Of a DNA stretch of 47,264 nucleotides, positions 2-13,829 are shown piece after piece. Position numbers and translations under genes: made by a program. Below the pieces are notes generated by a model that was given only the letters and a program-made list of their open reading frames with translations, made no database searches and was not told where the DNA came from. The first letter of the stretch is position 1; each line of letters starts with the position of its first letter. The DNA comes from a virus: IMG/VR virus record IMGVR_UViG_3300042260_000250, positions 1-47,264 of that record; one strand, given 5' to 3'.

Positions 2-346
2 GAGGCCAACAAAATATGGGGGTTCGATTTAATAAGTGCCGACGAAGAAATTCAATACACTGAGTATTATGACAAAAATGAAGGCCATTATGATTGGCAT
101 CAAGATATTGGTCCTGGTTCTCCTAGTCATAGAAAAGTATCAATTACCGTACAACTATCAGATTCAGATGAATATGAAGGTGGTGATTTACAAATTTGGT
201 CGGGAGGTCAAAACATACAAAATGCCGCGAGAGGAGCGGGAGTTGTAGTTATTTTCCCAAGTTATATGATGCACCGAGTTACTAAAGTAACCAAAGGAAC
301 TAGACGAAGTTTTGTTCTATGGGTGGGTGGTAGTCATTATAAATAA
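2..346 (+). CDS. 2OG-Fe(II) oxygenase, PKHD-type prolyl hydroxylase-like (5' truncated)
   Basis: Open from the window edge in frame 2 to a TAA at 344-346, giving the last 114 residues; the N-terminus lies outside the window. The core of an iron/2-oxoglutarate dioxygenase is visible: an HxD iron motif (WHQD, H33 and D35 of this fragment), the YEGGDL strand, the distal iron histidine in PSYMMHRV (H91), and the 2-oxoglutarate-binding arginine in GTRRSF (R101/R102). The spacing and the YEGGDL...H-RVTKVTKGTRR pattern resemble the YbiX/PiuC (PKHD-type hydroxylase) group, which also occurs in T4-like phages. It is the only plus-strand gene and converges on the collagen-like gene at 381-2225. Such enzymes hydroxylate prolyl or other side chains; the substrate here is unknown. 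Prolines in the neighbouring Gly-X-Pro repeats are an attractive guess only. Confidence 0.85.
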   Translation, partial: EANKIWGFDLISADEEIQYTEYYDKNEGHYDWHQDIGPGSPSHRKVSITVQLSDSDEYEGGDLQIWSGGQNIQNAARGAGVVVIFPSYMMHRVTKVTKGTRRSFVLWVGGSHYK

Positions 347-376
347 AAAAAGGTCAGAATATTCTGACCTTTTTTT
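345..376. terminator. Bidirectional intrinsic terminator between convergent genes
   Basis: A perfect 32-nt palindrome: seven A, then GGTCAGAAT, its exact complement ATTCTGACC, then seven T. On either strand this reads as a GC-containing stem followed by a T run. It starts inside the stop codon of the oxygenase gene and ends 4 nt before the stop of the 614-aa collagen-like gene, so it can end both transcripts. Confidence 0.85.
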
Positions 377-380
377 ATTA

Positions 381-2225
381 TTATCGAAACATAGGAAAAA
401 CGTACGAGAGTTTTCCACATCCTGCGGTTAAATAACTCACTACTATCGTACCTGCTTTAGGGTCTTCACACACATCAATAGATATAAGTTCACCACAAGA
501 TTCACCACATATACTAAATGGGATACTACCTCCACCTCCACCTCCTGGAGGTCCTGGAGGTCCCGTAGGTCCTATAGGTCCAGGACTACCTGTTGGGCCA
601 GGCCCTCCTGTTGGTCCAGGACTACCTGTCGGGCCAGGTCCCCCTGGCGAACCGCTAACACCTGAAGTACCATTAGACCCTGGCGTTCCGTTTGAACCTG
701 GAGGTCCAGGACTACCTGTAGGTCCCGTTCCTCCATCACGACCATTAACACCTGAGGTACCATCACGGCCAGGACTACCTGTCGGGCCAGGACCCCCTGG
801 CGTTCCGTTAGAACCTGGCGTTCCATTTATACCTGAAGTACCGTTAGAACCTGGGGGTCCAGGACTACCTGTAGGACCAGGTCCTCCATTAGACCCTGGC
901 GTTCCGTTAGACCCTGGCGTTCCATTTATTCCCGATGAACCTGATGTACCATTAGAACCTGGCGTTCCGTTAGACCCTGGTGTTCCATTTATTCCCGATG
1001 AACCTGATGTACCATTAGAACCTGGCGTTCCATTAGAACCTGGCGTTCCGTTTATCCCTGAAGAACCTGATGTTCCACTTGTTCCTGACGTACCAGCTCT
1101 ACCTGAAGAACCTGATGTTCCATTAGAACCTGGTGTTCCATTTATTCCCGATGAACCTGACGTTCCATTAGACCCTGGCGTTCCGTTAGAACCTGGCGTT
1201 CCGTTTGAACCTGGTGTACCATTAATACCTGAAGACCCACTTGTTCCTGAAGTTCCGCTTGTTCCTGAAGTACCCGCTCTACCTGAAGAACCTGAAGTTC
1301 CGTTTGAACCTGGTGCACCATTTATTCCTGATGACCCACTTGTTCCACTTGAACCTGAAGTTCCGTTTGAACCTGGTGTTCCATTTATTCCTGATGAACC
1401 ACTTGTACCCGAAGAACCACTTGTTCCACTTGAACCTGAAGTTCCGTTTGAACCTGGCGAACCGTCACGACCATTAACACCTGAGGTACCATCACGGCCA
1501 GGACTACCTGTCGGTCCATTAACACCACTAGACCCTGATGTACCTGAAGAACCGCTTGTTCCACTTGAACCTGACGTTCCATTAGAACCTGGCGTTCCGT
1601 TTATTCCTGAAGACCCTGATGTTCCTGAAGTGCCACTTGTTCCCGAAGTACCCGCTTTACCTGATGAACCTGAAGTTCCATTAGAACCTGGCGTTCCGTT
1701 TATTCCTGAAGAACCACTTGTTCCTGAAGTTCCACTTGAACCGTTTGTACCTGAAGAACCACTTGTTCCGTTAGAACCTGGTGTTCCATTTATACCTGAA
1801 GAACCACTTGTTCCTGAAGTTCCGCTTGAACCGTTTGTACCTGAAGTTCCACTTGTTCCGTTAGAACCTGGTGTTCCATTTATACCTGAAGAACCACTTG
1901 TCCCTGAAGACCCACTTGTTCCCGAAGTTCCGCTTGTACCTGATGTACCAGCTCTACCTGAAGAACCACTTGTTCCTGAGGTCCCATTAGACCCTGGAGT
2001 TCCGTTAATTCCCGAAGAACCACTTGTTCCTGATGTTCCTGCAAATACCGTTTGTTTACCCATATAACCTTGGGAATCAACAACAATATATGTAGTTCTC
2101 CCTTGGACGTTTCTTAACTTCTCGGTTTTAATCTCCGTAGGGTCAACATCACCAACTTCTTTAAAAACGGTGTCATTAATAGTAACACCTGAAGGTGCAT
2201 TTATCGTATATCCCTTTTTAGCCAT
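381..2225 (-). CDS. Collagen-like fibre protein, proline-richer (614 aa)
   Basis: Residues 1-62 form a non-repetitive head (MAKKGYTINAPSG...), likely the attachment end. Residues ~63-562 are an unbroken Gly-X-Y tract. Its triplets are GTS, GSS, GIN, GTP, GSN, and towards the C-terminus GPT, GSP, GPP and GRD. Proline is frequent and mostly in the Y position, where collagen prolyl-4-hydroxylases act; that is known family behaviour, not something shown here. A Gly run leads into a ~50-residue cap containing four cysteines (SICGESCGEL...DVCED...AGCGKL), perhaps a trimerisation or receptor-binding tip. Collagen-like tracts are known in phage tail fibres. It lies last in the minus-strand fibre cluster, 36 nt after the giant collagen-like gene, and faces the hydroxylase. 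The exact virion location is inferred. Confidence 0.85.
   Translation of the reverse strand: MAKKGYTINAPSGVTINDTVFKEVGDVDPTEIKTEKLRNVQGRTTYIVVDSQGYMGKQTVFAGTSGTSGSSGINGTPGSNGTSGTSGSSGRAGTSGTSGTSGTSGSSGTSGSSGINGTPGSNGTSGTSGTNGSSGTSGTSGSSGINGTPGSNGTSGSSGTNGSSGTSGTSGSSGINGTPGSNGTSGSSGKAGTSGTSGTSGTSGSSGINGTPGSNGTSGSSGTSGSSGTSGSSGVNGPTGSPGRDGTSGVNGRDGSPGSNGTSGSSGTSGSSGTSGSSGINGTPGSNGTSGSSGTSGSSGINGAPGSNGTSGSSGRAGTSGTSGTSGTSGSSGINGTPGSNGTPGSNGTPGSNGTSGSSGINGTPGSNGTSGSSGRAGTSGTSGTSGSSGINGTPGSNGTPGSNGTSGSSGINGTPGSNGTPGSNGTSGSSGINGTPGSNGTPGSNGGPGPTGSPGPPGSNGTSGINGTPGSNGTPGGPGPTGSPGRDGTSGVNGRDGGTGPTGSPGPPGSNGTPGSNGTSGVSGSPGGPGPTGSPGPTGGPGPTGSPGPIGPTGPPGPPGGGGGGSIPFSICGESCGELISIDVCEDPKAGTIVVSYLTAGCGKLSYVFPMFR
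540..2039 (-). repeat. Gly-X-Y coding repeat of the 614-aa protein
   Basis: About 500 codons in a 9-nt rhythm encode collagen triplets. Larger units recur, such as the block GINGTPGSNGTSGSSG and a GRDGTSGVNGRDG block seen twice. The 5' part is GTS/GSS rich and the 3' part is GPT/GSP/GPP rich. Confidence 0.9.
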
Positions 2226-2261: not shown

Positions 2262-5200
2262 TTAACTAAATAAGTCTAGTGTTATCGTATTAATTCTTGC
2301 AGCAACTTGTATATCTTTAGACGGTGATTGATTGATTATCACAACTCGTAACCTTTCTGGCGATGACGATGCAGTTATAACCGCTCTAAATAAATTAGAA
2401 TCTTGTGCCGAAATAATTTCAGTAAATCCTGGTCCTACAAGTGTGGCAACACCACCAATATTTTTAATTGCTCCTGTATACAGTCGATAATCACAATCAC
2501 CTGTTGACCCTTCAGTAGCCACTAAATATATTTCAACACCATACACTTTATTCTGAAGTACATCAAAATAATATGGGTTAGTAAGTTCAATATACAATTC
2601 ATCCGCACTATTTAGTGCAATTCTGTTTATTAATATATTACGAGTACTTTGTGGTCTACCACCACCTACTACCGCTAAATTGTGATTTGAATAATCTTCT
2701 TCATAATATCTCTCAGAATTAGCGTAAGTTCCCATTTCTAACGCCCCTAAAGTAGTGTTATCGGTGATAGGGAACGTTGAGTCACCTATAGTAGTTGGTG
2801 ATGTAAATTTAACGTATCTATCCAATGTCCCACTAACCGCAACTGATGTTCCACTTGAACCACTTGTACCTGAAGTACCTGATGTACCCGCTTTACCTGA
2901 AGAACCACTCGTTCCCGAAGTTCCATTAGAACCTGGAGTTCCGTTTATACCTGAAGAACCACTTGTCCCTGATGTTCCACTTGTACCTGATGTACCTGCT
3001 TTACCCGAAGTTCCACTTGTTCCGTTAGAACCTGGTGTTCCATTTACACCCGAAGTCCCACTTGTTCCGTTAGAGCCTGGTGTTCCATTTATACCAGAAG
3101 AACCACTTGTTCCTGATGTTCCACTTGTTCCATTAGAACCTGGTGTTCCATTTATACCTGAAGAACCACTTGTTCCTGATGTTCCTGATGTTCCTGAGGT
3201 ACCGTTAGAACCTGGTGTTCCATTTATACCCGAAGAACCATTAGTACCCGAAGAACCACTTGTCCCTGATGTTCCACTTGTCCCGTTAGAACCTGGCGTT
3301 CCATTTATACCAGAAGAACCACTTGTTCCTGAAGTTCCGCTAGTCCCTGATGTTCCAGCCTTACCTGAAGTTCCACTTGAACCATTAGTGCCTGAAGTAC
3401 CATTTACACCTGATGAGCCACTAGTTCCTGAAGAACCGTCAGTTCCATTTATACCGTCAACACCTGAAGAACCTGAAGTTCCACTTGAACCATTTGTCCC
3501 TGATGAACCACTTGTTCCTGAAGAACCATTTGTTCCTGAAGTTCCGCTTGTTCCTGATGTACCAGCCTTACCTGAAGTTCCACTTGAACCATTTGTCCCT
3601 GATGAACCACTTGTTCCTGATGTTCCATTTATTCCTGAAGAACCTGATGTACCACTAGTCCCTGAAGAACCTGATGTACCACTTGTTCCTGATGTTCCAT
3701 TTATTCCTGAAGAACCTGATGTACCACTAGTCCCTGAAGAACCTGATGTACCACTTGTTCCTGATGTTCCGTTTATTCCTGAAGAACCGCTAGTTCCTGA
3801 TGTACCACTTGTTCCTGACGTACCCGCTTTACCTGAAGTCCCACTTGAACCGTTAGTTCCTGAAGAACCATTTGTTCCACTAGTACCTGACGTACCTGAA
3901 GAACCATTAGTACCTGAAGAACCATTAGTTCCACTTGTTCCTGAAGAACCGTTAGTTCCACTTGTTCCTGATACTCCTGACGAACCACTAGTTCCTGACG
4001 AACCGTTAGTGCCCGATGAACCACTTGTTCCTGAAGTTCCGCTAGTCCCTGATGTTCCAGATTTACCTGAAGTACCACTTGAACCGTCAGTACCCGATGA
4101 ACCGCTAGTTCCTGAAGAACCATCAGTCCCATTTATACCATCAACCCCTGATGAACCTGAAGTACCACTAGTTCCTGATACTCCTGACGAACCTGAAGTT
4201 CCACTTGAACCGTTTGTTCCTGAAGTTCCGCTAGTCCCTGAAGTTCCCGCTTTACCTGATGTTCCACTAGAACCATTTGTTCCTGACGAACCACTTGTAC
4301 CTGACGTACCACTCGAACCGCTAGTTCCCGAAGAACCGTTTGTTCCTGAAGTACCACTAGAACCATTAGTTCCAGAAGTTCCACTTGTTCCTGATACACC
4401 CGATGAACCACTTGTTCCTGACGTACCACTCGAACCGTTGGTACCACTTGAACCACTAGTACCCGAAGAACCGTTTGTTCCTGAAGTACCACTCGAACCG
4501 TTAGTACCTGATGAACCTGAAGTTCCACTAGTACCTGACGAACCTGAAGTTCCGCTAGTACCTGAAGTACCATTTATACCTGATGAACCGCTAGTTCCTG
4601 AAGAACCATCCGTTCCATTTATACCATCCACACCTGAAGAACCATTAGTACCTGATGAACCACTAGTCCCTGAAGAACCGTTTGTTCCTGAAGTACCGCT
4701 AGTTCCTGAAGTTCCCGCTTTACCTGACGTACCGCTTGAACCATTTGTTCCTGATGAACCATTTGTTCCTGATGAACCATTTGTTCCACTTGAACCACTA
4801 GTACCTGAAGTTCCTGAAGTACCGCTAGAACCATTTGTACCTGATGTTCCACTAGAACCATTTGTACCTGACGTACCGCTAGTTCCTGAAGTTCCACTAG
4901 TACCCGAAACTCCTGAAGAACCTGATGTCCCACTTGTTCCTGAAACCCCTGAAGAACCGCTAGTCCCTGAAGACCCCGATGTTCCACTAGAACCGTTTGT
5001 ACCTGACGTACCACTCGAACCATTTGTTCCTGAAGTTCCACTAGTACCCGAAACTCCTGAAGAACCTGATGTCCCACTTGTTCCTGAAACCCCTGAAGAA
5101 CCGTCAGTACCATTTATACCATCAACACCTGATGAACCTGAAGTTCCACTTGAACCATTTGTCCCTGAAGTACCACTTGTTCCTGAAGACCCGTTTGTCC

Positions 5201-8200
5201 CTGAAGAACCATTTGTACCTGATGTTCCACTTGTCCCTGAAGAACCATTAGTACCACTTGTCCCTGAAGAACCATTAGTACCCGAAGAACCTGAAGTTCC
5301 ACTTGTTCCTGATGAACCTGAAGTCCCACTTGAACCATTTGTTCCTGATGTTCCACTAGAACCATTTGTTCCTGATGTTCCACTTGTTCCTGAAGAACCT
5401 GAAGTCCCACTTGAACCTGATGTTCCGCTAGTTCCTGACGAACCGTTAGTACCTGACGAACCACTTGTACCTGAAGTACCGCTAGTTCCCGACACACCTG
5501 AAGAACCCGAAGTTCCACTAGTCCCTGAAACACCACTCGTACCTGAAGTACCATTTATACCTGATGAACCGCTAGTTCCTGAAGAACCATCCGTTCCATT
5601 TATACCATCCACACCTGAAGAACCTGAGGTTCCACTTGAACCATTTGTTCCTGAAGTACCTGATGTACCACTAGAACCATTCGTACCTGAAGTTCCGCTT
5701 GTTCCTGAAGACCCATTCGTTCCTGATGAACCTGAAGTCCCTGAAGTTCCGCTTGTTCCTGATACACCTGAAGTTCCGCTTGTTCCTGACGAACCACTTG
5801 TACCTGATGAACCACTTGTTCCACTCGACCCGTTTGTACCTGAGGTTCCACTTGTTCCTGAAGTACCATTAACACCTGAAGAACCACTTGTACCTGAAGA
5901 ACCCGAAGTTCCTGAAGAACCACTTGTTCCCGATGTTCCGCTAGTACCCGATACTCCTGATGAACCTGAAGTACCACTAGAACCATTGGTACCACTAGAA
6001 CCGTTAGTACCTGAAGTTCCACTTGTTCCTGAAGAACCTGATGTTCCTGAAGAACCACTCGCACCTGAAGTACCACTTGTTCCTGAAGAACCGCTAGTAC
6101 CAGATGAGCCTGAAGTTCCACCACCAACGATTAAATAAGCCGAGAAATAACTTGTTGACCTATTAGAACCACCCTCAAGATTTCTACTTGTTGGGTCTCC
6201 ATTATAACCCGTAAATTCAACATAATCAGTAGTCCCATTAAAATAAATTATTTTATTATTACCTTGTGAAACACCTGCAGATGTTGTTGTTTGATTTTGC
6301 CAAATGAATGTTTGATTCCCATTTTTACGGATTTGTGAATTATATTGATTGTTCGCTACCGTAGCTGTTTGCCAAAAAACTTCAAGTGTCACATTGTAGT
6401 AACCCGCTATTGTTGGTGTAAATCTATAAGTTGATACATCCCACCAATTATTAGGGTCAAAATCATCAATAAATTGAATTATAGTATCAACATTTGAAGG
6501 AATTGATTGATTTGTCGATAAATAACCTTGTACAACATAGTCAGATGCAACCAATCCCGTTGGTGAGGTACCACTTGAACCTGAAGTCCCTGAGGAACCT
6601 GACGTTCCACTTGTTCCTGAAGAACCATTAGTTCCCGAAGTACCACTTGTACCTGAAGAACCATTAGTTCCTGATGAACCACTAGTTCCCGCAGAACCTG
6701 AAGTCCCACTTGAACCGTCGGTTCCATTTATACCATCAACTCCCGATGAACCACTAGTTCCCGCAGAACCTGAAGTCCCACTTGAACCATTTGTCCCTGA
6801 AGTTCCACTCGTACCTGATGTACCGTCACCTCCTGATGCACCATCTAAATTTGTTTCCCAAGTACAGTAATTACCTGAACCGTCAATTTCAGTTATCTGT
6901 AATGTTAAAGAACCTGTAGACGGATTATATGAAATCACATCACCGTGAAAGTGATTTGAATTGTCGTACGCAACAATTAAATGTTGGGCAATAGTATATG
7001 ATAAACCTACACTTGTAGTTATTGTTATGTTAGTACCAACAACTAATGTCGATAAATCAATACAATCTGTTGAATTTCCTATATAATCGGCACTTACCCC
7101 AGATGAACCTGAAGTTCCCGATGAACCGCTGGTTCCTGATGTTCCGCTAGTTCCTGATGTTCCGCTCGAACCTGAAGTTCCTGAAGAACCACTTGTTCCT
7201 GAAGAACCTGATGTACCACTTGAACCATTAGTTCCTGAGGTTCCACTTGTTCCTGAAGACCCACTTGTTCCTGAAGACCCATCAGTACCGCTTGAACCGC
7301 TAGTTCCACTCGAACCATCCGTTCCATTTATACCATCAACACCAGATGAACCACTTGTTCCCGCAGAACCTGATTCACCGCTAGTACCTGAAGAACCGTT
7401 TGTTCCTGACGTACCACTAGTACCTGAAGAACCACTTGTTCCTGAAGTACCACTTGAACCGTCAGTTCCCGAAGAGCCGCTTGTCCCACTCGAACCATCT
7501 GTCCCTGAAGTACCACTAGTACCTGAAGAACCATTTGTACCACTTGAACCGCTAGTCCCACTTGAACCATTTGTTCCTGACGTACCGCTAGTTCCACTTG
7601 ACCCATCAGTTCCTGAAGAACCGCTAACACCCGAAGAACCATCTGTACCATTTATACCATCAACACCAGAAGAACCGCTAGTCCCACTCGAACCTGATTC
7701 TCCCGACGAACCTGAAGTCCCTGAAGAACCGTCAGTCCCTGAAGTACCACTTGACCCATCAGTTCCTGATGTACCACTTTCTCCAGAAGAACCATCAGTA
7801 CCCGAAGAACCTGATGTCCCACTAGAACCGTCAGTTCCTGATGAACCACTTGTCCCTGAAGAACCATTAGTACCTGAAGTACCTGAAGAACCACTTGTTC
7901 CAGCAGAACCTGATTCTCCTGACGAACCTGATGTTCCTGAAGAACCGTCAGTCCCATTTATACCATCAACGCCTGAAGACCCTGAAGTCCCCGATGTTCC
8001 ACTCTCTCCTGAAGAACCACTTGTTCCGCTTGAACCTGAAGTCCCTGATGTACCGCTCGAACCTGAAGTTCCTGAAGAACCGCTTGTTCCACTTGAACCT
8101 GAAGTTCCTGATGTACCTGAAGTTCCTGAAGTGCCACTAGTACCTGAAGAACCATTTGTCCCTGAAGTACCACTTGTTCCAGATGTACCTGAAGAACCGT

Positions 8201-10115
8201 TTGTTCCTGAAGTACCACTAGTTCCCGATTCTCCCGATGAACCGCTAGTTCCTGAAGAACCATCCGTTCCATTTATACCGTCAACTCCTGAAGAGCCACT
8301 TGTTCCTGATGTACCTGATTCTCCGCTACTTCCCGAAGTACCGCTTGAACCATCAGTACCATTAACTCCACTTAATCCTGAAGAACCGCTAGTACCCGAT
8401 GTACCACTTTCACCTGAAGTCCCTGAAGAACCACTAGTCCCCGAAGAACCATTTGTTCCTGAAGAACCATTTGTTCCTGAAGAACCATTTGTTCCTGAAG
8501 TTCCTGATGTTCCACTAGTTCCCGATTCTCCTGATGAACCTGATGTTCCTGAAGAACCATCCGTTCCATTTATACCGTCAACTCCTGAAGACCCACTCGT
8601 TCCAGATGAACCTGATTCTCCACTACTTCCCGAAGTACCTGATGAACCGTTAACACCTGATGAACCGCTAGTCCCCGAAGAACCGTCAGTACCTGAAGAA
8701 CCATTTGTACCAGATGAACCATCAGTACCCGATGAACCATCAGTACCTGAAGTACCGCTTGAACCTGATGTTCCTGAAGAACCGTTAGTTCCCGAAGTAC
8801 CACTTGTACCTGAAGAACCATTAGTACCTGAAGTACCACTAATACCTGATGAACCTGATGTTCCACTTGAACCATCTGTTCCATTTATACCATCAACACC
8901 TGAAGACCCTGAAGTCCCTGATGTACCACTTTCTCCCGATGAACCCGATGTTCCTGATGAACCGTCAATACCTGATGTTCCTGATGAACCGTCAATACCT
9001 GATGTTCCTGATGAACCGTCAATACCTGATGTTCCTGAAGTACCTGAAATACCACTAGTACCCGACGTACCACTTGAACCTGAAGTCCCTGAAGAACCGT
9101 TAGTCCCTGAAGTACCACTTGTCCCTGAAGTACCACTTGTCCCTGAAGAACCATCCGTCCCTGAAGAACCATCCGTCCCTGACGTTCCTGAAATACCACT
9201 AGTTCCCGATGAACCTGAAGTTCCCGATGTACCGCTCGAACCATTTGTACCTGAAGTTCCACTTGAACCTGAAGTTCCTGAAGAACCACTAGTACCTGAT
9301 GAACCATTAATCCCCGACGAACCTGATGTCCCTGAAGAACCACTAGTACCTGATGTACCTGAATTAGTCGCAGTAATACCCGTTATTATAATGGTATCAC
9401 CAATATTATTATATAAATGAATCTCAGATGATGCAGAAAAATAAGTACCACCCGTAACATTTATGTCAGTCATTCCTGTAATACTAACTGTATTACCTGA
9501 ATTATCGTATAATTCAATATAGTTGTTGATACCCGAAGCACCTGTAAAGAAAGTTCCTCCCGTGATGTAGGTATCATTTAAATCGGCTATTCTCCAACGA
9601 GCGTCGTTATGAGTAACACCTCCAACACCTTCAATAGTTGACGCAGTCCAAGCGTTAAGGAATAACTCTCCTTGGGGGGTGTCATTAAAACACATATAAC
9701 CTGTCGAGACTTCCGTTAGAGAGCCCGCGGTTTCCGCATTGTTAAAAAGTGTAGTATAATCAGGTATTACATATTGATATGTTAAATCAGTTTCGTGAAC
9801 ATAAACTAACATACCCAATCTTCTTCTACCTGAAGATATACCGTCATTATATAATCTTATTTCATTAGATGTTCCATATGGGACATTATAACTGAAATTA
9901 ATTGGGATACTATTACCTGAATACTCAACGGCACCACCATTAATTAAAACGTCATTAGGTATTGTCCAAATTAAATCTGAAAGGTTGTAAACTTCCATAT
10001 ATCCACCGATACTGTCTACACTGAAATTAGTACCTTCAACGTTAGCTCTATCTACGGATATTGGACCGAAAACAACATTAGCAGAAACTGGATTTTTATA
10101 ATCAAAACTCATCAT
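2262..10115 (-). CDS. Giant collagen-like tail fibre protein (2617 aa)
   Basis: The layout reads: residues ~1-252, a beta-rich head with two tandem strands of the ITGGT(Y/F)F...IELYDNSGNTVSITG type common in phage tail proteins; ~253-1005 Gly-X-Y; ~1006-1091 a first internal globular module; ~1092-1182 Gly-X-Y; ~1183-1333 a second module with a C1q/TNF-like look (YRFTPTIAGYYNVTL, IRKNG, SAYLIVGG); ~1334-2420 Gly-X-Y; ~2421-2617 a beta-rich cap ending RINTITLDLFS. The triplets are mainly GTS, GSS, GTN and GTD, with almost no proline until about residue 2258. The start is one of two adjacent ATG codons, 13 nt after the 311-aa gene. A long distal fibre is the likely role; no single family covers the whole protein. 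Trimer formation is inferred from the collagen pattern. Confidence 0.85.
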   Translation of the reverse strand: MMSFDYKNPVSANVVFGPISVDRANVEGTNFSVDSIGGYMEVYNLSDLIWTIPNDVLINGGAVEYSGNSIPINFSYNVPYGTSNEIRLYNDGISSGRRRLGMLVYVHETDLTYQYVIPDYTTLFNNAETAGSLTEVSTGYMCFNDTPQGELFLNAWTASTIEGVGGVTHNDARWRIADLNDTYITGGTFFTGASGINNYIELYDNSGNTVSITGMTDINVTGGTYFSASSEIHLYNNIGDTIIITGITATNSGTSGTSGSSGTSGSSGINGSSGTSGSSGTSGSSGTSGTNGSSGTSGTSGSSGTSGISGTSGTDGSSGTDGSSGTSGTSGTSGTSGTNGSSGTSGSSGTSGTSGISGTSGTSGIDGSSGTSGIDGSSGTSGIDGSSGTSGSSGESGTSGTSGSSGVDGINGTDGSSGTSGSSGISGTSGTNGSSGTSGTSGTNGSSGTSGSSGTSGTDGSSGTDGSSGTNGSSGTDGSSGTSGSSGVNGSSGTSGSSGESGSSGTSGSSGVDGINGTDGSSGTSGSSGESGTSGTSGTSGTNGSSGTNGSSGTNGSSGTSGSSGTSGESGTSGTSGSSGLSGVNGTDGSSGTSGSSGESGTSGTSGSSGVDGINGTDGSSGTSGSSGESGTSGTSGTNGSSGTSGTSGTSGTNGSSGTSGTSGTSGTSGTSGSSGTSGSSGTSGSSGTSGTSGSSGTSGSSGESGTSGTSGSSGVDGINGTDGSSGTSGSSGESGSAGTSGSSGTSGTNGSSGTSGSSGTDGSSGTSGSSGTDGSSGESGTSGTDGSSGTSGTDGSSGTSGSSGESGSSGTSGSSGVDGINGTDGSSGVSGSSGTDGSSGTSGTSGTNGSSGTSGSSGTNGSSGTSGTSGTDGSSGTSGSSGTDGSSGTSGTSGSSGTSGTSGTNGSSGTSGESGSAGTSGSSGVDGINGTDGSSGTSGSSGTDGSSGTSGSSGTSGTSGTNGSSGTSGSSGTSGSSGTSGSSGTSGTSGTSGTSGSSGTSGSSGVSADYIGNSTDCIDLSTLVVGTNITITTSVGLSYTIAQHLIVAYDNSNHFHGDVISYNPSTGSLTLQITEIDGSGNYCTWETNLDGASGGDGTSGTSGTSGTNGSSGTSGSAGTSGSSGVDGINGTDGSSGTSGSAGTSGSSGTNGSSGTSGTSGTNGSSGTSGTSGSSGTSGSSGTSPTGLVASDYVVQGYLSTNQSIPSNVDTIIQFIDDFDPNNWWDVSTYRFTPTIAGYYNVTLEVFWQTATVANNQYNSQIRKNGNQTFIWQNQTTTSAGVSQGNNKIIYFNGTTDYVEFTGYNGDPTSRNLEGGSNRSTSYFSAYLIVGGGTSGSSGTSGSSGTSGTSGASGSSGTSGSSGTSGTSGTNGSSGTNGSSGTSGSSGVSGTSGTSGTSGSSGTSGSSGTSGSSGVNGTSGTSGTSGTNGSSGTSGSSGTSGSSGTSGTSGVSGTSGTSGTSGSSGTNGSSGTSGTSGTNGSSGTSGTSGTNGSSGTSGSSGVDGINGTDGSSGTSGSSGINGTSGTSGVSGTSGTSGSSGVSGTSGTSGTSGSSGTNGSSGTSGTSGSSGTSGSSGTSGTSGTNGSSGTSGTNGSSGTSGSSGTSGTSGSSGTNGSSGTSGTNGSSGTSGTSGTNGSSGTNGSSGTSGTSGTNGSSGTSGSSGVDGINGTDGSSGVSGTSGTSGSSGVSGTSGTSGTNGSSGTSGTNGSSGTSGSSGTSGSSGVSGTSGTSGSSGVSGTSGTSGTSGTSGTNGSSGTSGTNGSSGTSGTSGTSGSSGTNGSSGTNGSSGTNGSSGTSGKAGTSGTSGTSGTNGSSGTSGSSGTNGSSGVDGINGTDGSSGTSGSSGINGTSGTSGTSGSSGTSGTSGSSGTNGSSGTSGTNGSSGTSGSSGTNGSSGTSGTSGSSGVSGTSGTSGTNGSSGTSGTNGSSGTSGSSGTSGTSGSSGTNGSSGTSGKAGTSGTSGTSGTNGSSGTSGSSGVSGTSGTSGSSGVDGINGTDGSSGTSGSSGTDGSSGTSGKSGTSGTSGTSGTSGSSGTNGSSGTSGSSGVSGTSGTNGSSGTSGTNGSSGTNGSSGTSGTSGTNGSSGTNGSSGTSGKAGTSGTSGTSGTSGSSGINGTSGTSGTSGSSGTSGTSGSSGINGTSGTSGTSGSSGTSGTSGSSGINGTSGTSGSSGTNGSSGTSGKAGTSGTSGTSGTNGSSGTSGSSGTNGSSGTSGSSGVDGINGTDGSSGTSGSSGVNGTSGTNGSSGTSGKAGTSGTSGTSGTSGSSGINGTPGSNGTSGTSGTSGSSGTNGSSGINGTPGSNGTSGTSGTSGTSGSSGINGTPGSNGTSGTSGTSGSSGINGTPGSNGTSGTSGVNGTPGSNGTSGTSGKAGTSGTSGTSGTSGSSGINGTPGSNGTSGTSGSSGKAGTSGTSGTSGSSGTSVAVSGTLDRYVKFTSPTTIGDSTFPITDNTTLGALEMGTYANSERYYEEDYSNHNLAVVGGGRPQSTRNILINRIALNSADELYIELTNPYYFDVLQNKVYGVEIYLVATEGSTGDCDYRLYTGAIKNIGGVATLVGPGFTEIISAQDSNLFRAVITASSSPERLRVVIINQSPSKDIQVAARINTITLDLFS
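2856..9359 (-). repeat. Gly-X-Y coding repeats of the giant fibre, with internal breaks
   Basis: Around 1930 residues of Gly-X-Y are split by two globular modules (DNA near 6840-7098 and 6117-6570). A block VDGINGTDGSSG recurs about a dozen times, visible on the plus strand as CCATTTATACCATC. Charged triplets change along the tract: GES and many GTD before the modules, GKA/GKS after them, and GTP-GSN only at the end. Confidence 0.9.
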
Positions 10116-10128
10116 ATTATTAAATATC

Positions 10129-11064
10129 TTACGGTATTAAACTTCCTCCTCGGAAATATAAATTATTATTAAAATTCTTTATTTTAAAGTCACCAATTGT
10201 ATATGTCGAATACACTCTATAAGTACCTGCAGGTATTGCAGTACCTGTATAATTAACAATGAAACTAGAGTATGTACTATTCATAGTAAAGTAAGTTAAA
10301 GAACCTGGGCTATTTGATTCACCAATTGTCGCATATTTTTGTCCATTTGTCGCCCCTGTTGGAACAAACCAAGTATACCAACAAGACTCATTAGGGTCCA
10401 TAACTGTATTAGGGACTTCGTGAGTTAAGAATCTATACGCAACTATTGGATTACCTTCAGAATCGAATCCTCCCGAAGATGTTGGTACTTGTTCACTTCT
10501 AATTGATGGTACACCTAAACTACCCCATCCTGTATAATTTAAGTAAGCATTCATCTGATTATTAAATGTTGATGAGGCAACCGAAGGGGAATTAATATTA
10601 TAACCTCTAAACGCACTTCCTTGAGATACCATCCAAGTGTTAAATGAAGTTCTTGCACTATATGGTTCAATAGTTAAATAAGCGTAGAATGAAGGTGTTG
10701 CGGTTGGTGTCGGTGTTGGTGTTTGAGTCGGAGTTTGGGTCGGTGTTGGTGTTGGAGTCGGAGTACCTGTAGGTTCTGGTGTTGGAGTTGGTGGTGGAGT
10801 TGCAGTAGGTGTTGGAGTTGCGGTAGGTGTAGGGGTAGGTGTAGGTTCGGTACAAGGTGCGATTATAAATGTTTCACAATTAAGTGAGTCAATAACTTTA
10901 ATCATAACCGCAGGGGCACTATTATACATTGCAGGTAAAACCACAGTATACGGCATTGTTGTTGTGGACCCAACATAGCTACAACTAGCACCAAGCACAT
11001 TACACACATATACTTGATATGGTGATGTTCCTGTTATACTTGTAATAGTTATTGATGACCCCAC
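10129..11064 (-). CDS. Tail adhesin-like protein with partial SprB motif and Pro/Thr linker (311 aa)
   Basis: The frame opens at GTG (11062-11064), two codons after a TAA; the first internal ATG is near residue 37. The N-terminus (SSITITSITGTSPYQVYVCN) looks like the second half of an SprB-type repeat as found in the gene before it, and lacks the usual leading cysteine strand. A Thr-Pro-rich linker ([18 protein letters not shown]) follows at roughly residues 72-125. The C-terminal ~185 residues (FYAYLTIEPYSARTSF...RGGSLIP) form a globular domain I do not recognise; it contains FNTW and CWYTWF segments. A 131-nt gap separates it from the 877-aa gene, and 13 nt separate it from the giant collagen-like gene. 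A small fibre or adhesin is likely. The short start may reflect a module trimmed by recombination. Confidence 0.7.
   Translation of the reverse strand: MGSSITITSITGTSPYQVYVCNVLGASCSYVGSTTTMPYTVVLPAMYNSAPAVMIKVIDSLNCETFIIAPCTEPTPTPTPTATPTPTATPPPTPTPEPTGTPTPTPTPTQTPTQTPTPTPTATPSFYAYLTIEPYSARTSFNTWMVSQGSAFRGYNINSPSVASSTFNNQMNAYLNYTGWGSLGVPSIRSEQVPTSSGGFDSEGNPIVAYRFLTHEVPNTVMDPNESCWYTWFVPTGATNGQKYATIGESNSPGSLTYFTMNSTYSSFIVNYTGTAIPAGTYRVYSTYTIGDFKIKNFNNNLYFRGGSLIP
10690..10850 (-). repeat. Thr-Pro(-Gln) linker repeat
   Basis: A low-complexity 6-nt-based tract encodes TPTPT, TATPTP and TQTPTQ units in the 311-aa protein. It closely resembles the linker in the neighbouring 877-aa protein. Confidence 0.85.
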
Positions 11065-11195: not shown

Positions 11196-13829
11196 TTAAA
11201 TACAACATTGTACAGGTATTGTTGACCCACAAGTAGCCGCAGTTACATTGTATTGTTCAGGGCCATTTGTTAATGATAAAACTTGGTAAGCACAAGTAAC
11301 ACAAGGAACTCTGTCTAAATTAACAAATTCTCCAATACTTAACTGATTTATATATCTAACTACATAAACATCACCACCAATTGCCCCTGTTTCACAATCA
11401 ATAACCTCTTGAACGTTGTAATAGTAATATGTTTCCGTTGGTGTAGGTGTTTGAGTTGGAGTTGTCGTAGGTGTTGGGGTCGGTGTTTGAGTTGGAGTTG
11501 CCGTAGGTGTTTGAGTCGGTGTTGGACTCGGTGTAGGTGTTGGAGTTACCGTAGGAGTTTGAGTTGGTGTAGGAGTTTGAGTTGGCGTAGGTGTTTGAGT
11601 CGGCGTTGGAGTTACCGTAGGAGTTTGAGTCGGTATAGGAGTTTGAGTCGGTGTTGGGGTTTGAGTTGGCGTAGGTGTTGGCGTAGGTGTTGAGTAATCG
11701 TCACAACAGAATCCATAATCTATCATTAATCTAATTATAACGTCCTTATCCGATAAGGCCTTTAAACAATCGGTACTTAACTGAATTGTATTTGATTCGG
11801 TATTAATTATGATAGAACCAATACCAGGTATACTATCTAATAGATTTCGTAACGCGGTAACGTATTGGGTATCTGTTGGGTAATCCAAAATTCCAACTGA
11901 ATTATAAAATTCACTAGTATAACCTGTACCCCCAACATCTAACAATATAGTAAATGTTGCGGCGGTTAATGAACATCCCGTTTCTCCCGAAGTTAGAACT
12001 TCATAACCATCATTTAACATTTGTCTTAAACCTTGTTCAGTACCACTATTCTCAATAAATTCACTATCACAGACATTAAATAATGAATATGTCGAATTAT
12101 TAGAACTACAACTTACTGAAATTGTCTTGTTTGCAACACATCCGTCAGAATCGGTTAAAATTAAACTATACGTTCCCGCAGTCAATCCCGTTATAAACAT
12201 ACCCGTTTGAGAACCAACATTTGAGGACCAACCAAAAGTATATGGTGGTTTACCTCCTGTAATTAAGGCAGTAACTGTACCCTCATTACCGTTCCCACAA
12301 GAAGTACTAGTTAAAGTAAACGCGGTCTTGGTCGATGATGGAATAATAAAACTTGTTTTTATTGTACACGATTCACTATCAGGGTCCGCATCACTAACTA
12401 ATGCGTTATAAAAACCTGCAGGTAGATTGGTAAATGTTGCCGTTTGGCTTGTACTATTTGCAATTATTTGACTACCGACCTGGTAGGTGTAAATACCTGG
12501 AGTGTCCACATAAACAGTAACCGACCCATTTTGATTTCCACAGGTAGTTGCAATTGGGTTCACGTTAACCGCATATGGTTGTACGTTCTCAATAACCACT
12601 GTTTTAGTGTAAGTACAAATCCCACCCTGAGTTGTCATTGTTACGGTATAAGTACCTGAACTTAAATTATTAAAAACCGCACTAGGAGATGTGTTCTGAG
12701 TATTAAGTACAGTACCGTTAGAATCTAATAATTCAAAAATATATGGCGTTTGTCCACCCCCACCTGATATAGTTATTGACCCACTACCGTTTGAACAGGT
12801 TGAGTTTTTAACAACTACGTTAGTTGATGTGAATGAGTTAGGTGTTAAAATAGTAGTACTACCTGAAACAACACATAGTGATGCGTCTGTAACTATAACG
12901 GTGTATGTCCCCGCAACTAAGTTATTATATGTATAAGTTCTACTTCCATCAATATCATTTTCACCATTTGAAAATTGATAATAAAATGGTGGTGTACCAC
13001 CAGATAAATTAACAATAATTTGTCCATTATTATCAAAACAAGTTGGGGATGTGTTAACAAAGTTAATAATCCCTAATCTAGTTGCCGCGGATACCACAAC
13101 ACTTTTAGTTATTGAACAATTATTGGCATCTGTAACAGTAACGGAATACGACCCACCTGACAAACCTGTTAATGAGGGTTGATTTATCGGGCTACTACTC
13201 CACTGATATGTGTAAGGAGAGGTACCAGTTAAACCTGTCACATATATCGCACCAGTATTACCTTGGGTACACGCGGAATCATCAATAGTATATAAACCAA
13301 ATGTGAATTTACCTGAATCAGTAATAACACAAGTGCCTGTAGAACCTGAACAACCACCATCGTCTGTGGCAATAACATAATAAATACCCGATGGTAATGA
13401 ATCAAAAATTTGAACGTCATCAGCAATTGAAGTACTGATAAGGGTACTATTTAATCCCGACAACTGATATAAGTCGTAAGTTACTGGATAATTTTGTGTT
13501 GTAGCAGTTACGGATAACATACCATTACTTCCTTCACAACTCGCTTCAGTTACTGTCTCTAAACTAAGACATAGTCCTGTCGAAATCCAAAGATTTACAT
13601 AAATCTCATCATTTGGCGGGGTATTTGAGTCATTTATTCTTATTTGATATAAACCTCCACTAAGTCCTGTTCTAGTTGAGTCGTCACCATCGTACACTAA
13701 AGTATCAACACCTAAATTTGGGTTATACCAATCGATAGTATATGGTTCGACACCGTCAATAGGGAATATTTGGATTGAACCATCACCCAAACCATTACAG
13801 TCCCCATTTACAATTGCATTATAAAACAT
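11196..13829 (-). CDS. SprB-repeat adhesin-like tail protein (877 aa)
   Basis: Residues ~1-585 hold about seven repeats of 75-90 residues. Each has a cysteine near its start, a G(S/Q/A)I(T/Y/I)V strand, a GG(T/K)xPYxYxW/F turn, a L(S/P/T)(G/A)G(T/S)Y(T/S)V(T/I)VTD strand and a second C. This is the SprB repeat known from Flavobacterium gliding adhesins. Residues ~585-710 form another domain (LLDVGGTG...[11 protein letters not shown]...DYGFCCDD) that resembles the end of the preceding 994-aa protein. Residues ~711-798 are a Thr-Pro-Gln linker, and the last ~78 form a cysteine-containing cap ending IPVQCCI. The start overlaps the previous stop (TAATG). A receptor-binding or host-surface adhesin is inferred; there is no signal peptide, as expected for a virion protein. 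Confidence 0.8.
11436..11694 (-). repeat. Thr-Pro-Gln linker repeat
   Basis: About 85 codons of TPTPTQ / TPTPTV type with a strong 6- and 12-nt period. The near-identical character to 10690-10850 makes the two tracts plausible recombination partners. Confidence 0.85.
12075..13829 (-). repeat. About seven tandem SprB-type protein repeats
   Basis: The units are divergent in DNA but clear in protein. Recurring anchors are [29 protein letters not shown] and [39 protein letters not shown]. Confidence 0.75.

Follow-up and report, generated by a model that had tools for sequence, protein, structure and literature searches.

A prolyl-hydroxylase-fold oxygenase beside collagen-like genes as a candidate fibre-modifying enzyme of tailed phages

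The locus

Virus record IMGVR_UViG_3300042260_000250 carries at one edge a gene for a 2-oxoglutarate- and Fe(II)-dependent (2OG-Fe(II)) oxygenase that runs towards a collagen-like fibre gene. The window analysed here, positions 1-47,264 of the record (47,264 bases), is from a large tailed phage and encodes, further along, baseplate proteins, ribonucleotide reductase, a DnaB-type helicase and a UvsX-type recombinase. The features at its first end are as follows.

2-346, + strand: 3′ part of the 2OG-Fe(II) oxygenase gene (114 amino acids, PF13640; 5′ end off the contig edge)
342-379, no strand: perfect palindrome with flanking A/T runs, a likely bidirectional intrinsic terminator (fold energy, shuffles)
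381-2225, − strand: collagen-like fibre gene, 614 amino acids, 158 Gly-X-Y triplets (PF01391; PHROG tail fibre families)
2262-10115, − strand: second, larger collagen-like fibre gene, 2617 amino acids, 645 triplets (Gly-X-Y count)

The oxygenase gene and the 614-amino-acid fibre gene are convergent, with the palindrome between them. Its predicted fold (−20.7 kcal/mol, z −7.94) was equalled in stability by 0 of 200 shuffles, and it is likely to terminate transcription from both sides. An initial sequence-only reading of this DNA had emphasized that the oxygenase stands on the opposite strand to all other genes. Within the window this is true, and the other + strand open reading frames (ORFs) of at least 100 amino acids are all antisense to longer − strand ORFs; those at 2755-6138, 8131-9420 and 1630-2067 (up to 1127 amino acids) are antisense shadows of the Gly-X-Y repeats and probably not genes. 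In the closest relative with upstream sequence (locus L004, 82% identical), however, the genes directly upstream of the oxygenase are also on the + strand. We therefore rejected the lone + strand gene as a meaningful feature and regard it as an effect of the contig edge.

The oxygenase family and its predicted fold

The window holds the last 114 codons of the oxygenase ORF, which is open at its 5′ end and starts beyond the contig. An identical 114-amino-acid stretch occurs in two other viral contigs, which extend the protein to 152 and 173 residues; full-length relatives have about 195. PF13640 matches the window protein with 58.3 bits (curated cut-off 27), placing it in the superfamily. As the sequence-only reading had noted, the HxD...H and R residues are kept: H92xD94, H150 and R160 (numbering of the 173-residue copy, L002) are invariant in 30 aligned rows, as are a tryptophan six residues past the 2OG-binding arginine and an N-terminal R-x-S motif, both of which may resemble peptide-binding residues of prolyl 4-hydroxylases (P4Hs).

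The same reading had described a YbiX/PiuC-type pattern. Hydroxylases of that PKHD type (PRK05467; PDB 3dkq, 9ghl and 9qn1) are indeed the nearest proteins by sequence, with PDB profile matches at E 1.2e-8 to 9.5e-8, but membership of that family was rejected: with the NCBIfam YbiX/PiuC models the scores reach 64.8, 63.4 and 60.0 bits, whereas the best model requires 143 (equivalog cut-offs 143-399), and the model match stops at position 172 of 221, with the phage protein ending six residues later and nothing following the barrel.

An AlphaFold2 model of the oxygenase (pLDDT 87.5) found PHD2 (5l9b) as its top Foldseek match, with E 4.7e-10, and the Pseudomonas putida P4H-EF-Tu complex and PiuC within the top 21. 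VIA Z scores were 18.4 for PHD2 (166 of 173 residues aligned), 17.2 for the EF-Tu-bound P. putida P4H (164 residues), 15.5 for PiuC and 15.4 for an algal P4H with a Ser-Pro peptide. By its model, then, the oxygenase is a 2OG-Fe(II) protein of the PHD/P4H fold, in a family found here in phages, a shared fold being no proof of shared function. EGLN3-like folds are already known in marine-phage proteins annotated as 2OG-Fe(II) oxygenases, according to PMC12774648.

Some family members bear another name. Those of S-H38 (L088 10850-11389) and of the S-SCSM1 and S-CAM8 RefSeq records are labelled 'ferrochelatase', a label that was perhaps, at a guess, carried over from PHROG 3531, which has that name. 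HTVC008M (L089 11752-14625), whose genome has no PF01391 match, carries four consecutive 2OG oxygenase genes and then a gene labelled ferrochelatase, on the opposite strand to the neck and baseplate genes that flank them.

Association with collagen-like genes

Loci were the best 80 of 151 found with the oxygenase, most with up to 10 kb on each side and many with less, so that 'without' a gene means without it in view. De-replication at 95% gave 47 clusters (LR756501 included), among which related lineages remain, and p-values are indicative. A collagen-like ORF of at least 20 triplets is in view at 37 of the 47 de-replicated viral loci and lies within 2.2 kb in 24. The collagen-like ORF may precede the oxygenase on the same strand, follow it on that strand or converge on it, the last arrangement being that of the window and L004.

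To place these distances against those of other genes, 17 contigs were fetched, 16 of them with collagen (G017 without); G011 was left out, as were 926, 880 and 139 bases of G031, G024 and G015. The oxygenase lies nearer to a collagen-like ORF than do most genes of the same contig, with a Fisher-combined p of 1.2e-5 that is generous, given the relatedness of the contigs and the many that begin or finish inside collagen repeats. PF01391 matched 48 of the 50 records searched from the closer family (50 of 81 loci, chosen mostly for length), and for that reason its presence alone says little. A PF13640 profile search gave no match in 20 of these 50 records although all had been reached through oxygenase loci; its absences were not used.

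More remote homologues, 35-39% identical to the 173-residue copy, tell a different story. The genomes of S-H38, HTVC008M (36%) and P-SSM7 (35%) carry such homologues, and no PF01391 match was found in any of the three whole genomes. The HTVC008M homologue adjoins neck genes; that of P-SSM7 is followed after about 0.6 kb by a virion structural gene and after 1.9 kb by tail-fibre genes. Related phages with the hydroxylase but without a collagen-like gene, which the sequence-only reading had named as evidence against its idea, thus exist in part, though only among the remote homologues.

These remote homologues bear on the possibility that the oxygenase acts on some other protein, either a non-collagen virion protein or a host protein, as the Pseudomonas P4H does with EF-Tu, its closeness to collagen reflecting no more than the late fibre region. 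Two window proteins are relevant.

10129-11064, − strand: 311-amino-acid protein with a Pro-Thr linker, a possible alternative proline substrate (no Pfam match)
11196-13829, − strand: protein with Pro-Thr repeat linkers and SprB repeats, a possible alternative prolyl hydroxylase substrate

The collagen-free phages, the strong match to the EF-Tu-bound P4H structure and the Pro-Thr linker of the window, which makes the protein at 10129-11064 another local proline-bearing candidate, all favour such a target. Pro-Thr type repeats, however, occur in just 6 of the 47 loci (L004 also has a Pro-Thr repeat protein), and collagen is present in nearly all searched records of the closer family. We consider this alternative rather unlikely. 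The SprB repeats, which we take as a pointer to Bacteroidota, suggest that the host of the window phage is probably a member of that group.

Proline in the collagen-like fibres

The fibre at 381-2225 is clearly collagen-like (PF01391 233.6 bits, cut-off 27.2). Across its 158 triplets proline occupies Y 31 times and X 11 times (binomial p 0.003, with repeats that are not independent), and lysine Y 0 times and X once; the earlier description of a Gly-X-Y neighbour with prolines mainly in Y is accurate for this fibre. The larger fibre at 2262-10115 is nearly proline-free, with Y 6 and X 0 in 645 triplets, and has lysine in Y 0 and X 8 times.

These counts suggested a specific activity, in which the oxygenase would be a collagen Y-position prolyl 4-hydroxylase converting Gly-X-Pro to Gly-X-Hyp in the adjacent fibre and stabilizing its triple helix, a special case of the broader fibre modification that we argue for below. 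The prolyl-hydroxylase fold of the model is consistent with this, as is an excess of Y- over X-proline at L002 (the window's type, 34/11), L004 (15/3), L007 (9/1) and L015 (3/0), while bacterial and viral collagens show no such preference according to PMC3368898. The family as a whole argues otherwise. With loci of fewer than 20 triplets dropped (10 of 47), 33 of the remaining 37 have no more Y- than X-proline, and several have none in Y at all (L071, X 154 and Y 0; L079, X 176 and Y 0). The larger neighbouring fibre offers six prolines. In the window's part of the oxygenase tree, one group of 11 rows mixes Y-proline loci with loci that carry a lysyl hydroxylase (support 91/88, under the starred level), and by this appearance the oxygenase is not tuned to Y-proline. 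The sequence-only reading's Y-position target does not survive these X/Y counts as a property of the family, and we rejected it as such; as the activity of this particular enzyme, collagen Y-prolyl 4-hydroxylation is also improbable.

A glycosyltransferase-rich neighbourhood

Neighbours were tallied as the two nearest non-collagen ORFs of at least 100 amino acids on each side, with short cut-off ORFs dropped, and Pfam tallies here and in the control cover the first 25 families. Glycosyltransferases are the commonest Pfam matches among the genes nearest to the oxygenase, where further 2OG enzymes also occur. Glycosyltransferase family 2 was matched by 22 of 83 upstream neighbours, and the 87 downstream neighbours included 14 of group 1, 8 of GT25 and 7 of GT4. 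Among 85 random genes from 17 such contigs (five per contig, none within 8 kb of the oxygenase, and unmatched for genome region), the sole glycosyltransferase family within the 25 of 43 families listed was GT9, with one gene. At L004 the oxygenase closes a + strand gene run that includes two FkbM-type methyltransferase genes; one of the encoded proteins (1454 amino acids) also has glycosyltransferase sugar-binding, group-1 and GT9 glycosyltransferase domains.

Such a neighbourhood could instead be a surface-glycan cassette, in which the oxygenase and glycosyltransferases alter host lipopolysaccharide, sugar nucleotides or other small molecules and so exclude rival phages. The prevalence of glycosyltransferases fits this idea, and PMC7029224 ascribes O-chain modification to the glycosyltransferases that pelagimyophages encode in their fibre region. 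The nearest solved folds of the oxygenase are, however, mostly protein hydroxylases, and the GT25 and PLOD-GT domains linked to it in relatives (below) match collagen enzymes that modify proteins. We regard a surface-glycan role as quite improbable.

Lysyl hydroxylase and glycosyltransferase enzymes in relatives

A lysyl hydroxylase adjoins the oxygenase in 9 of the 47 loci. Eight of these have a downstream pair, comprising a GT4-family protein and a fusion protein of 430-480 amino acids; in L079 the lysyl hydroxylase is upstream and split over two ORFs. The N terminus of the L005 fusion resembles procollagen galactosyltransferase 1 (E 2e-17), and its C terminus resembles LH3 (7e-26) and mimivirus L230 (9.5e-24). 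In the cultured cyanophages S-CAM9 and S-PRM1, the latter a phage of Synechococcus WH7803, the gene order is tail fibre, small protein, 2OG enzyme, oxygenase family member and a 'hypothetical protein' of 613 or 614 amino acids. In both phages this last protein unites COLGALT1-like, PLOD-GT and lysyl hydroxylase domains and is encoded beside Gly-X-Lys fibres.

L087 12339-14180: S-CAM9 gp218, 613 amino acids, with GT25, PLOD-GT and lysyl hydroxylase domains

Pfam recognizes PLOD-GT (PF25342, 160 bits) and GT25 (PF01755, 101.7 bits) in gp218, which also has a lysyl hydroxylase domain. Against the PDB, gp218 matched LH3 (5.5e-33, the best stretch being the LH3 glycosyltransferase domain), COLGALT1 (1.2e-19) and L230 (1.3e-8), and its structural model (pLDDT 81.7) matched LH3 over its length, while its individual domains matched R699, GGT, COLGALT1 and L230. 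PHROG 61 spans nearly all of the 613-amino-acid protein (979 bits) and is named just '2OG-Fe(II) oxygenase', so phage annotations derived from it may hide the GT25 and PLOD-GT domains. The partial genome of S-8S53 has the same gene order, with PLOD-GT and lysyl hydroxylase domain matches.

A single fusion-protein query gave four lysyl hydroxylase loci, and an alignment-based search was used in its place; the best 80 of its 259 loci, de-replicated at 90%, formed 38 clusters. A member of the small oxygenase's family (at least 120 bits) lies within 1.5 kb of the lysyl hydroxylase in 23 of the 38, with 6 too truncated and 9 without. A collagen-like ORF lies within 4 kb in 24 of the 38, and that of L155 is probably an antisense artefact (a GPV run). 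A Pfam scan of 17 proteins of the window itself, a subset of the ORFs in a record that ends at the oxygenase, gave no match to a domain of the lysyl hydroxylase, PLOD-GT or GT25 kind.

Scanning a collection of genome contigs for the lysyl hydroxylase gave three loci, all on contigs of metagenome-assembled genomes (MAGs). In one of them (L265, a Neomarinimicrobiota MAG), Gly-X-Y runs that include the GSKGQKGE motif lie a few kb away from the lysyl hydroxylase-like match, which is 29% identical.

Lysine in the Y position and the KGQKGE motif

The fibre just upstream in S-CAM9 has 59 triplets with lysine in Y 22 times and in X 0 times, and S-8S53 has lysine in Y in 24 of 55. Among lysyl hydroxylase clusters with at least 20 triplets, 23 of 25 have lysine in at least 5% of Y positions, and pooled over the 38 clusters lysine occurs 1229 times in Y and 22 times in X. 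Charged residues in prophage collagens share the X/Y preferences of human collagens, according to PMC3368898. An excess of lysine in Y is thus general in collagens, and we rejected it as proof, on its own, of lysyl hydroxylation, relying instead on how loci with the enzyme differ from those where it is not in view, and on the KGQKGE motif.

Within the oxygenase loci, Y-lysine is higher with a lysyl hydroxylase (n = 8) than without (n = 29; p 0.002). Of 26 loci with the lysyl hydroxylase, 17 contain KGQKGE, spanning three domain architectures; of 29 loci where the enzyme is not in view, none does. Separate searches supplied the two sets: the first is 25 of the 38 clusters, with the S-CAM9/S-PRM1 cluster counted twice and collagen-free clusters and L155 left out, and the second is the 29 oxygenase loci. 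The sequences thus indicate an association of Y-lysine and KGQKGE with the lysyl hydroxylase that is a correlation, not proof.

One clade also has an additional enzyme. Loci L048, L049 and L061 encode an extra 190-amino-acid 2OG oxygenase (L048 9176-9748, L049 9176-9748, L061 430-1002; PF13640 29.5 bits for L048), one or two genes before the oxygenase. It is possible that this is an unrelated lysyl hydroxylase.

Interpretation

We favour, by a narrow measure of confidence, the interpretation that the oxygenase is a fibre-modifying hydroxylase of the PHD/P4H fold within a fibre-decoration cassette that combines hydroxylation and glycosylation. In this model it would hydroxylate side chains of the phage's own tail-fibre proteins, post-translationally and inside the infected host cell, either together with or before the addition of sugars by the adjacent glycosyltransferases. 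We infer that the fibre proteins are its substrate; given that they are, proline is perhaps the modified residue, with somewhat better prospects than not. In the window phage the best guess would be proline, either in the GTP, GSP and GPP triplets of the fibre at 381-2225 or in the linker of the Pro-Thr protein at 10129-11064, and that a collagen proline in Y is the target there is, overall, doubtful. Because only 4 of 37 loci show an excess of Y-proline, and because collagen is absent from some genomes with remote homologues, 'fibre-modifying hydroxylase' appears, from the sequences, to be a better fit than 'collagen Y-prolyl hydroxylase'.

Several observations weigh against fibre modification, beyond the inflated significance of the distance test. 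Neither G035 (64 kb) nor G013 (119 kb, with the gene 6.8 kb from the contig end) shows closeness of oxygenase and collagen, G017 carries the oxygenase without collagen, the three genomes with remote homologues have none, and in the 735-kb phage LR756501 some 57 kb separate the homologue from the closest collagen match, itself a weak one. Glycosyltransferases may be generally common near fibres, a point on which the region-unmatched control is silent, and those beside the oxygenase may act on host surface glycans. The proline idea is weakened at the Y position by the 33 loci described above. A separate exception concerns the association of Y-lysine with the lysyl hydroxylase: the collagens of the L048, L049 and L061 clade have abundant Y-lysine (21-36%), and no such enzyme is in view there. 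Contig G031, which holds L052 (in one 95% cluster with L048), has 92 lysines in 647 Y positions and no lysyl hydroxylase in 160,000 bases searched, and the lysine triplets of the clade are mainly GDK and GFK, not GQK.

For the relatives, we judge the chances to be even that tailed phages including S-CAM9 and S-PRM1 carry a collagen-maturation operon. Its triple-domain enzyme would hydroxylate lysine in Gly-X-Lys, notably in KGQKGE, and add galactose and then glucose, amounting to the animal-type Glc-Gal-hydroxylysine pathway in one chain. The oxygenase family would supply a companion that hydroxylates fibres, probably at proline, and is retained in phages without Y-lysine fibres. The original suggestion that the phage carries its own collagen-maturation enzyme therefore gains from the linkage, the fold and the lysyl hydroxylase and glycosyltransferases of relatives, and is better supported by these last enzymes than by the oxygenase that prompted it.

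Should the cassette function in the way that its domain and gene make-up indicates, phages perform collagen-type hydroxylation and glycosylation on their own fibres. Some of the numerous marine-phage genes that are known just as '2OG-Fe(II) oxygenase' orphans would then have a function, and the contribution of fibre chemistry to fibre stability and host recognition would become testable. It would also provide small, single-chain collagen-modifying enzymes usable for making hydroxylated, glycosylated collagen in bacteria. Among the titles and abstract openings listed by a literature search with thin coverage of subscription journals, there was no report of collagen-type lysyl hydroxylases or glycosyltransferases in phages.

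Comparison with known systems

By fold, the oxygenase is nearest to the HIF prolyl hydroxylase PHD2/EGLN and to bacterial P4H of the EF-Tu type, yet it is only 18-21% identical to them. YbiX/PiuC proteins, its nearest by sequence, have an iron-uptake gene context, whereas the phage oxygenase has a fibre gene context. The 2OG oxygenases of T4-like cyanophages and pelagiphages (annotated T4-GC 412; PHROG 61 family) belong to the same wider family; those of HTVC008M and P-SSM7 reside in genomes without PF01391, unlike the closer oxygenase family. Two small 2OG prolyl hydroxylases offer further parallels: the P4H of Bacillus anthracis, a bacterial enzyme with collagen-type activity or name according to PMC8968730, and the viral collagen prolyl hydroxylase vCPH of chlorella virus, known here by its PDB title alone. 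The PDB entry of that title matched the model of the lysyl hydroxylase fusion and was not among the oxygenase rows shown.

The closest parallel to the relatives' cassettes is found in Mimivirus, with its lysyl hydroxylase L230 and glucosyltransferase R699, and in animal PLOD3 and COLGALT1. Collagen modification by Mimivirus is already known (PMC9546862). The same domains recur in the relatives' cassettes beside Gly-X-Lys fibres, whereas the window fibres carry no Y-lysine. Unlike the Mimivirus and animal systems, the relatives are tailed phages of bacteria, unite GT25, PLOD-GT and lysyl hydroxylase domains in one chain of about 613 amino acids, and add an extra small oxygenase to the cassette.

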